From Actinomyces qiguomingii (lineage in GTDB: Bacteria; Actinomycetota; Actinomycetes; Actinomycetales; Actinomycetaceae): a stretch of 64,000 nucleotides of DNA. The first letter of the stretch is position 1; every line of letters begins with the position of its first letter. Shown in pieces: positions 8,692 to 40,633 of this stretch. A model generated the notes under the pieces. The model did not search any database. It saw only the letters and a program-made list of their open reading frames with translations, and was not told the origin of the DNA. The stretch lies in the NCBI RefSeq assembly GCF_004102025.1, contig NZ_CP025228.1, positions 682,001-746,000 on the forward strand, read 5' to 3'. Made by a program: the position numbers and the translations under genes.

Positions 8692-9217
8692 GACTCTTGC
8701 GGTTTGCGGGTGTGGTGGTTGGGGGCGGTGGGTGCCGGATCTGCCGAGTGCGTCCTCGCCATCCCCAGGCCCGCGGCTCTCCGCATTCGGGAGGGGCCGG
8801 GTTGATGAGGACGTTCTCGCCGGGCCGGGGGCGTTGTCGGGCGCGCAGGCGCCGCCGGGCCGGGGCGCGGGCCCGGCGTGCGCGCCCGTGCATCCCGGGT
8901 GATGGTTCGGCACTTCGCATGACGGTTCGGCACTTAGCGTGACGGTTCGTCACTTGGCAACAGCGCTTCGGCACTTCCGGCGACGGTACGTACCTCTGGG
9001 TGCCGAACCGTCACAACAAGGTACGAACCGTCGACCACAACGTACGAACCGTCGAGCCAAGGTACGAACCGTCGCGCCAGATCCACCACGGACACCAAGA
9101 CGCCGCCACCTCGGTGTGTCACAAGTGCCGGTCTCAGCGTGTAACAAGTGCCGGTCTCAGCGTGGCACGGCAGCACACCCGGCCGGCGAACCACCACAGC
9201 TCCGAACCGGAGGCGCC
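8692..9217 (+). mobile_element. Non-autonomous element (MITE-like) with ISL3-like ends
   Basis: The left end begins GACTCTTGCGGTTTG and runs into GGTGTGGTGGTT; the right end, read on the other strand, begins GGCGCCTCCGGTTCG and contains TGTGGTGGTT. The flanks ACTAAACG (8684-8691) and ACTAAAAG (9218-9225) match at 7 of 8 positions, the duplication length known for ISL3-family insertions. There is no credible coding sequence. The centre holds many copies of ACGAACCGTC and its complement in opposing orientation. It is homologous along much of its length to the element at 39033-39750. It accounts for most of the 742-bp gap here. Confidence 0.8.
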
Positions 9218-28585: not shown

Positions 28586-28738
28586 GCTGCCAGGCCGGGC
28601 CTGGGCCGGCCATGCCGGCGACGTCCGCGGCCGGCAGCCGGCCGGGCCCACGCCCACCCACTACACCCTCAAACGCGAAGAGCCGTTCTCACTTCTGCCT
28701 GCGGTGCACAAGCGCTGAGGACCCGCGCGTGGGCGGGC

Positions 28739-38695: not shown

Positions 38696-39811
38696 TCACC
38701 GCACCTGGGGAATGCCCAGCTCGTCGCGGGCGGAGCGCATCTGGGCGGCCTCGGCGCGGGAGAACTCGAACTCCGCCTCACTCCAGTCCCACATGGCCTG
38801 GATCAGGGGTTTGAAGCTCTTCCCGCGGCGGGTCAGCCGGTACTCCACCCGGGGCGGCACCTCGCCGTAGTCGATGCGCTCAAGAAAGTCGTCCGCGACC
38901 AACTCCCGCAGCTGCTTGGACAGGGTTGAGTCCGACACACCGTGCAGGCACCGCTTTAGCTTGCCGAAGTGCCTGACCTCGGCCAGGGCCACGTAGAAGA
39001 GGATCTCGATCTTCCACTTGCCGCCGATTACCGGTTCTTCCGGTTTGAGGGTGTGGCGGTTCGCCGGGTGTGTGCGGCTGGGTGAGGTAACACGCCGAGA
39101 CCGGCACTTGTAACACACCGAGACCGGCACTAATGACGTACCGAGGTGGTAGTGCTTTGGTGTCGGCTTTGGAGTGGGCCTGACGGTTCGTATGTTCTGG
39201 TCGGCGGTTCGTCACTTCCCACGACGGTTCGGCACCTAGAGGCACGAACCGTCGTGGGAAGTGCCGAAGCGTTGGTGCCAGGTGACGAATCGTTGCCGTT
39301 CATGACGAACCGTCGTGCGGGGCACACGGGCGGACACGCCCTAGGTCCGTGCCCCTCAGCGGCGCATGCGCGCCCGAGGCGCCTGGGGTCGCGGCATTAT
39401 TAGCAAGCAGCGGAATCACTGTAAGTACTGAGCGGTGCCGTCGACGGCCGCCGCTCCGGTCGGCGTTCGGATGGTCTCAACGGCCCTAACGAATCGTTCC
39501 CGCAAGGCCCTCCACCGCCCGCCCGACAACATCCCCGTCGGCCGGAGAACGTCCCTGGTTCGGCGAAGACGTTCTCATCAGCCCGATAATGCCCTTACCG
39601 GCCCGAAACCCGCCCGAATGTGGAGGGTTTGGGGAGGAAGAGGTCGTCTGCGGCAGATCGACACCCATCGAAGACGACTTCCCACACCCGAAAACGACCA
39701 CCACACCGCAGCCCCGGACCCAACCACCACACCATCAAACCGGAAGAGCCCGATTACCTTCTGCAGGGAAGAGATCGCGGGGCACCACTCGATCTTGGGG
39801 GCTTCAACCAT
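38696..39811 (-). pseudogene. HxlR-family regulator split by a MITE-like element
   Basis: The gene starts at the ATG at 39811 and runs to 39751 (MVEAPKIEWCPAISSLQKVI), then is interrupted by the element at 39033-39750, and resumes at 39024 to the stop at 38696. Joining the parts and removing one 8-bp duplication restores an uninterrupted 129-residue HxlR protein: the family's N-terminal Cys-Pro (WCP), VIGGKWKIEIL at the junction, the wing PPRVEYRLT and the tail. Such proteins usually sense redox or electrophile stress, and this one is divergent from a DsbA-like gene it would be expected to control. The C-terminal fragment alone lacks the sensing cysteine. Confidence 0.88.
39033..39750 (-). 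mobile_element. MITE-like element with ISL3-like ends and perfect 8-bp target duplication
   Basis: The ends GGTTCTTCCGGTTTGAGGG (39033) and, on the other strand, GGCTCTTCCGGTTTGATGG (from 39750) form inverted repeats that fit the ISL3-family pattern. CGATTACC flanks both sides (39025-39032 and 39751-39758). The 718-bp body encodes no transposase. Inside, CACTTCCCACGACGGTTCG (39213-39231) pairs perfectly with 39245-39263 to form a 19-bp stem. Large parts match the element at 8692-9217 in opposite orientation. It interrupts the hxlR gene. Confidence 0.9.
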
Positions 39812-39830: not shown

Positions 39831-39864
39831 CCGCTAGTACTACAGAAAAAGATAGTACTAGCGG
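39831..39864 (+). promoter_or_regulatory. Perfect inverted repeat, likely HxlR operator
   Basis: CCGCTAGTACTA (39831-39842) and TAGTACTAGCGG (39853-39864) are perfect 12-bp arms around a 10-bp spacer, located between the hxlR start and the divergent dsbA-like gene. Each arm contains the self-complementary TAGTACTA. Confidence 0.7.
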
Positions 39865-39946: not shown

Positions 39947-40633
39947 ATGAAGGTGACCTACTGGTCGGACTTCGCCTGCCCGTACTGCTATGTCGGCGAG
40001 ACTCGGCTGCACAAGGCGATCGAGTCGCTCGGCCTGGTCGACGACGTCGAGGTGGAGATGAAAGCATATGAACTGTACCCGGATGCGCCCCGTGAGGTGC
40101 AGGGCCCCACACTCGACCGTTTTGCTAGGAAGTACCGCCTGACCAGGGCGGCCGCGCGCCAGCGCATCGACTCCATAAGCGCCATGGGGCGGGCCGAGGG
40201 CATTGACTTCAACTACGCCACCACGCTTAACACCAACATGCTTGATGCGCACCGGCTCACCAAGCTGGCCCACGTGCTGGGCAACACCCGCTTCGAGGAA
40301 CTCTGCTTCCACGCCTATTTCGTGGACAACGAGGTCATGTCCGACCACGTCGTCCTGCGCCGCCTGGCTAAGCAGGCCGGACTGCCGGAGGTGGACGTGG
40401 AGCGCGTGCTGTCCAGCAACGAGTACGCCGACGCCGTGCGTGCCGATGAGCGTGAGGCACAGTCCATGGGGGTGAACGCCGTGCCGTTCTTCGTGGTGGA
40501 CGGCAAGTACGTGATCTCCGGATGCCAGCCCATTGAGGAGATGACTCGGGTACTCACCAGTGCGCGCGATGCGGCGCTCGCTAAGGGTGCTGCCGAGGGC
40601 GGGGCCTGCGGCCCGGAGGGGTGCGCGATCTGA
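39947..40633 (+). CDS. DsbA-family oxidoreductase, FrnE-like
   Basis: A cytoplasmic thioredoxin-fold protein of 228 residues with the N-terminal active site CPYC (WSDFACPYCYVG) and the cis-proline loop NAVPFFVVDG near residue 182. The C-terminal tail GGACGPEGCAI carries extra cysteines, a feature seen in some FrnE-type proteins. No signal peptide is present. AGGAGG lies before the ATG. Divergent hxlR plus a FrnE-like gene is a common pair in redox or electrophile response. Confidence 0.88.
   Translation: MKVTYWSDFACPYCYVGETRLHKAIESLGLVDDVEVEMKAYELYPDAPREVQGPTLDRFARKYRLTRAAARQRIDSISAMGRAEGIDFNYATTLNTNMLDAHRLTKLAHVLGNTRFEELCFHAYFVDNEVMSDHVVLRRLAKQAGLPEVDVERVLSSNEYADAVRADEREAQSMGVNAVPFFVVDGKYVISGCQPIEEMTRVLTSARDAALAKGAAEGGACGPEGCAI

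Follow-up and report, generated by a model that had tools for sequence, protein, structure and literature searches.

Insertion of a non-autonomous ISL3-type element into an hxlR-type regulator gene of Actinomyces qiguomingii

The nearest counterparts of the element described here are MITEs of the ISL3 family and further non-autonomous elements with shared ends, among them mobile insertion cassettes. Regulators of the HxlR or MarR-DUF24 type include both repressors, such as YodB and QsrR (according to titles cited in PMC8063818), and an activator, the HxlR of B. subtilis (according to PMC7835342). The same paper places helix 1 of B. subtilis HxlR, with Cys11, in the dimerization domain, ahead of the winged helix-turn-helix, and identifies the motif IGGK as residues 20-23. 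Structural relatives, which were searched for with the Actinomyces orthologue P0001, are HxlR (7bze), YybR (4a5m), YodB (5hs7) and QsrR (4hqm).

The window analysed here, a stretch of 64,000 nucleotides from the A. qiguomingii contig NZ_CP025228.1, contains a gene of this type that is split by a 718-bp element (Table 1). The preferred reading, to which a probability of roughly 0.85 is assigned, is that a non-autonomous ISL3-family element transposed into the gene of an hxlR-type redox regulator, duplicating an 8-bp target, and that the regulator has been lost. The borders and the perfect 8-bp duplication proposed by the initial annotation are exact when the sequence is read directly. The termini, GGTTCTTCCGGTTTGAGGGTGTGGCGGTT and (as the reverse complement) GGCTCTTCCGGTTTGATGGTGTGGTGGTT, are identical at 26 of 29 bp, and the end pattern has four matches in the window with up to three mismatches, two of them the element's own ends, while the mean over 100 shuffled versions is 0.00. 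No transposase-like open reading frame is apparent by eye on the list of frames within the element, and the 22 ISL3 transposase matches in the genome (PF01610, E 0.001) all lie outside it, so that the description of a transposase-less element with ISL3-like inverted ends also stands and classification as a non-autonomous ISL3-type element, here called a MITE, is supported.

Table 1. Features of the split regulator locus, with positions in the window
Feature	Position	Strand	Remarks
Non-autonomous ISL3-type element (MITE)	39033..39750	+	718 bp; inverted ends, 8-bp duplication, multicopy
Target-site duplication, left copy CGATTACC	39025..39032	.	read directly
Target-site duplication, right copy CGATTACC	39751..39758	.	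read directly
Left inverted repeat of element	39033..39061	+	end comparison and shuffle control
Right inverted repeat of element	39722..39750	-	end comparison
Two tandem units of 23-bp repeat CGAGACCGGCACNNNTNACRNNN	39096..39145	+	also dispersed outside element
Imperfect palindrome, strong hairpin, 67 bp	39205..39271	.	matches itself at 85% over 68 columns
hxlR 3' fragment with its copy of the duplication	38696..39032	-	winged helix-turn-helix and C-terminal helix
hxlR 5' fragment with its copy of the duplication	39751..39811	-	start codon, Cys10 (WCP motif), helix 1
Probable HxlR operator GCTAGTACTA-N10-TAGTACTAGC	39833..39862	.	intact perfect palindrome between divergent genes
DsbA/FrnE-like thiol oxidoreductase gene	39947..40633	+	intact, 228 aa, CPYC; PF01323 115.5 bits

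Two other pieces of related sequence were noticed in the window. The first is a decayed, older-looking relative of the element at 8692-9217 (526 bp, borders by eye), which has decayed ends, similar interior repeats and a duplication that matches at 7 of 8 positions by eye (ACTAAACG/ACTAAAAG), and the second, at 28661-28684, is a solitary minus-strand end of the ISL3 type, GGCTCTTCGCGTTTGAGGGTGTAG.

Removal of the element and one copy of the duplication yields, as had been claimed, an unbroken HxlR frame of 129 codons, which scores 82.8 bits against PF01638 (cut-off 20.8) and equals in length the genes of A. glycerinitolerans (L063) and A. succiniciruminis (L064). The insertion falls in codons 19-21, at the end of the first helix, at VIG-GKW. 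The sensing cysteine had been placed on a 20-codon fragment; Cys10 is indeed on the small piece, but this N-terminal piece, whose ATG is at 39811, runs on into the element until it meets a stop and is 77 codons long. The alignment with relatives that had been suggested finds an empty site and an intact 129-aa gene in the two species just named, which align at 87% across the insertion point. A full-length orthologue of the adjacent DsbA/FrnE-like gene occurs in 6 of 48 other genomes of the genus (73-94% identity, all other matches being partial and below 40%), and the divergent hxlR frame is unbroken in five of these six; in G070 (L178), another Actinomyces species, the hxlR beside the same gene is independently frameshifted. 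Among 18 related loci examined (16 distinct, two genomes appearing twice), WCPAI is present in all 15 of the 15 hxlR frames, while L069 and the distant relatives L073 and L074 have no hxlR frame. A search of the window's own genome for a second close copy of hxlR gave none; the only two other genes of the hxlR type in it are distantly related (31% and 35% identity) and therefore do not represent a close replacement.

The search with HxlR of a protein database clustered at 90% gave as its best full-length match, among the 120 listed of 663 matches, a protein of Actinomyces sp. MRS3W that is 88% identical. The split form is itself represented in the database by P0002 (98% over 88% of the query, with the same junction, 10 member sequences and a longest contig of 89,310 bases), which begins within the element and has no start codon. 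Because of this entry the statement that the insertion affects this strain may be too narrow, yet P0002 is perhaps a draft contig of the same strain that ends in the repeat. Intact HxlR proteins of the same species could also be hidden in the P0002 cluster.

The age of the insertion can be judged in part from the other copies of the element. The window's own genome (G000, a single contig of 3,988,549 bases) holds at least five full-length copies with identities of 96-100%, 40 of 185 candidates having been scored. Perfect 8-bp duplications, all different, flank four of the five (CGATTACC, ACTAACGA, GGTTATGA and AGATACGG), and the fifth, at L005, has no target duplication and carries an additional 20-bp insertion. 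The window copy has no private substitutions and the other four have 2, 3, 4 and 5. Since the five copies differ pairwise by 8-16 substitutions, the burst that produced them was not extremely recent, and the window copy could be near the source copy rather than being the youngest. Sequence related to the MITE was found in 6 of 59 genomes searched, the window's own included, and near-identical full-length copies are confined to the latter among these 59, the best elsewhere being a 66% full-length match in G013. The initial annotation had called the insertion fresh, and this agrees with the perfect duplication, with the lack of private substitutions over 718 bp and with the absence of the element from the sister species, which together support a recent insertion into hxlR.

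The copy at L005 has a history of its own. L004 and L005 have in common a segment of 2.37 kb, within which the element lies and whose limit is the element's right border, and L005 is therefore regarded as the product of a rearrangement, which may have been a recombination or an adjacent deletion. An ISL3-ended composite of L005 and the neighbouring transposase gene was considered and rejected, because the far border has neither an ISL3 end nor a matching duplication. At L004, L005, L268 and L269, two MITE copies adjoin the same 414-aa frame, by eye an IS110-like transposase; one copy beside this frame has lost its duplication, with the rearrangement breakpoint exactly at the element end.

It is unlikely that the insertion is old and fixed, having struck a regulator which the cell could already do without, so that the element now has no effect. 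That the regulator can be lost is evident from the independent frameshift in G070, and P0002, which shares the junction, may represent further assemblies, but both pieces of hxlR remain open-framed with high identity to the intact orthologues, the operator is intact, and the perfect duplication and unblemished sequence of the window element contrast with the decayed ends and 7/8 duplication of the relative at 8692-9217.

Under the preferred reading of a recent transposition, the enzyme that drove it was most likely of the ISL3 type, to judge from the ends and the duplications. G000 contains ten copies of a 1448-bp ISL3 insertion sequence (IS) which are identical along their whole length, nine of them with perfect 8-bp duplications (the exception is L036), and their 436-aa transposase scores 351 bits against NF033550, the ISL3 family transposase model (cut-off 180). 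The ends of this IS have GC or GT at positions 9-10, as against CG in the MITE, together with further single differences; by hand count the right end of the MITE agrees with its 3' end at 25 of 28 positions and with its 5' end at 20 of 28. An equivalent hand count gives 25 of 26 identical positions between the right end of the MITE and the CCGG-ended IS of the sister genome G066, which is 1448 bp long, has a perfect duplication and is almost intact, although by our own reading the frame shifts near the C-terminus. G000 has a CCGG-ended IS of 1452 bp within a 2467-bp unit that is flanked by the perfect duplication AAGTATCC, and frameshifts disrupt its transposase; among the copies in G000 whose ends were examined, which include some of the degenerate PF01610 matches, none combines CCGG ends of the MITE type with an intact ISL3 transposase. 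The search for a full ISL3 element with the same ends, which the initial annotation had suggested, thus finds ISL3 transposases in the genome, while the ends of the intact ones are somewhat different. The element would have been moved in trans, either by the enzyme of the ten-copy IS or by a CCGG-ended relative like that of G066. Its derivation from an ISL3 IS by internal deletion was also considered; because only the ends match in the two IS compared, it is classed as an end-sharing element and not as a deletion derivative.

A survey of convergent end pairs that covered the window and 40 further stretches gave 13 pairs, eight of them with a perfect 8-bp duplication. These eight comprise two 718-bp copies, three units (699, 551 and 532 bp) in which PF01610 has no match and three of 1452, 1492 and 2467 bp which each have one; the other five pairs lack a good duplication (3-7 mismatches). 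When the perfect duplications are pooled, imperfect ones being excluded, 20 are obtained (19 sites in G000, with CGATTACC occurring twice, and one in G066), and in each of them both central bases are A or T, a pattern that the hxlR site CGATTACC fits. The second occurrence of this octamer is at L106 (G000:C1:268934-270385), where it flanks a 1452-bp ISL3 IS in surroundings unrelated by eye to those of the window element, and it probably reflects target preference. The 2467-bp unit, at L109 (G000:C1:799251-801717), has a perfect duplication and combines an IS with roughly 1 kb of additional DNA that a third end delimits, as if a passenger had been acquired through the use of an outer end.

The regulatory consequence depends on the operator and on the target. 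The palindrome beside the gene is likely to be the HxlR operator. It is the only perfect match to GCTAGTACTA-N10-TAGTACTAGC in the genome, and when three mismatches are tolerated the backward control yields one match per strand. The core AGTACT-N12-AGTACT recurs at constant spacing in 14 of the 18 related loci (12 of the 16 distinct ones), from Actinomyces to Coriobacteriia, and is missing from the distant relatives L073 and L074 and from L178 and L179 in Actinomyces. The divergent dsbA/frnE gene reported earlier is present and intact by its PF01323 match, and is the probable target of HxlR; an NCBIfam scan of the 228-aa oxidoreductase gave no match above cut-off, and FrnE is the name which we presume to apply to it.

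In the proposed sequence of events, an ISL3-family non-autonomous element would have entered hxlR at codons 19-21 with duplication of the 8-bp target, and the regulator would no longer work, since the DNA-binding domain has been cut off from helix 1, on which the sensing cysteine and a part of the dimer interface are located. The DsbA/FrnE-like gene would then lose its thiol-responsive control. Since repressors and activators both occur in the family, the direction of this effect, on or off, cannot be read from the sequence, and by analogy with these relatives the loss of HxlR could mean derepression of the gene or, equally, its non-induction, so that the permanent derepression proposed by the initial annotation is a guess.

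Simple loss of HxlR is the most likely outcome at the level of the gene products, but the C-terminal piece has to be considered in its own right, because it lies in an open frame (38699-39130, 144 aa) which starts at a GTG inside the element, at 39130, and retains the whole HxlR Pfam domain. The element might in this way supply a start, and perhaps a promoter, for a fusion protein whose winged helix-turn-helix binds the operator without Cys10, locking the target in one state. The Pfam score of the frame is almost unchanged (82.3 against 82.8 bits), a promoter-like site at 39425-39396 on the same strand is aimed at the fragment (one found, against a mean of 0.1 in shuffles), and the split form is listed in the protein database; on the other hand, a ribosome-binding site ahead of the GTG is not seen by eye, strong hairpins intervene between the promoter-like site and the start, the dimer-interface helix 1 is missing, and the database entry, which lacks a start codon, may merely reflect a contig that ends in the repeated element. 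A working fusion of this kind is considered unlikely.

The interior of the element contains the hairpin and the 23-bp repeats listed in Table 1. The fold of 148 nt around the palindrome (39183-39330, minus strand) has a z of -7.0, and the Rfam matches in this region were set aside as hairpin noise, being microRNA models far below their cut-offs. The repeat CGAGACCGGCACNNNTNACRNNN occurs, with up to two mismatches, at 39 places in G000, ten of them inside the five MITE copies (backward-read control 0). In G064 there are 103 places, and the repeat is present in 7 of 49 Actinomyces genomes. Its placement was surveyed at 27 loci of G064 chosen among the matches listed, the G011 and G000 loci (L242-L247, L266, L267) being left out, with genes called by a simple codon-composition heuristic. 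Of the 27 arrays of at least two units, 23 could be placed between called genes, two lie at an edge and two lie inside a call. A same-sense gene is followed by 19 of the 23 placed arrays and not by the other four; 18 of these 19 are within 85 bases of the called stop, and four overlap the gene end. Between co-directed genes, 11 of 12 arrays follow the gene in their own sense. A simple gene-tail rule was nevertheless rejected, because the array at L242 lies between two genes of opposite sense and those at L136 and L137 precede genes (all by eye). The repeats were also considered as possible ends of an autonomous element, but no transposase was noticed by eye among the beginnings of open reading frames. 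Rfam gave 0 matches at the gathering threshold on four of the repeat loci, and a literature search for a 23-bp intergenic tandem repeat in Actinomyces found nothing.

These gene-tail repeats and strong hairpins form the regulatory interior in a more speculative account, which is improbable, namely that the MITE serves as a regulatory module which ISL3 enzymes make mobile and disperse, and has here converted a redox switch into a cysteine-less regulator locked in one state. An assembly artefact or chimera is far less probable still, for although misjoins can arise at a five-copy repeat, a misjoin would not make a matching 8-bp duplication, the flanks rejoin into the frame of the intact orthologues, and the database entry has an identical junction.

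The insertion is real, yet of the ordinary kind by which mobile elements wear down genomes. Its value is that a regulator which probably responds to thiols has been cleanly knocked out in nature, with the operator-like site and the target intact and with intact sister species for comparison, and that it documents a family of ISL3-linked non-autonomous elements in Actinomyces; among the titles listed in a literature search, none concerned ISL3 elements of this genus. The element resembles ISL3-family MITEs in its inverted ends, GGCTCTTC...GTTTGAGGGTGT, as in the ISL3 IS of the same genome, in its several dispersed copies, in its 8-bp duplication and in having no recognisable transposase. A typical MITE is shorter than 718 bp, and the element also differs from one in the tandem 23-bp repeats and the 67-bp palindrome of its interior. 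The regulator resembles the HxlR or MarR-DUF24 family in its PF01638 domain, its conserved cysteine before (I/V)GGKW and the palindromic site beside the gene, and it differs in that the gene is split by an element. Unlike the formaldehyde sensor HxlR, the Actinomyces HxlR has no lysine two residues past the cysteine. The half-sites are spaced as TACT-N12-AGTA, as against the TACT-N7-AGTA preferred by YodB according to PMC8063818, and the cut in the Actinomyces gene falls at the position equivalent to the IGGK of B. subtilis HxlR as numbered in PMC7835342.
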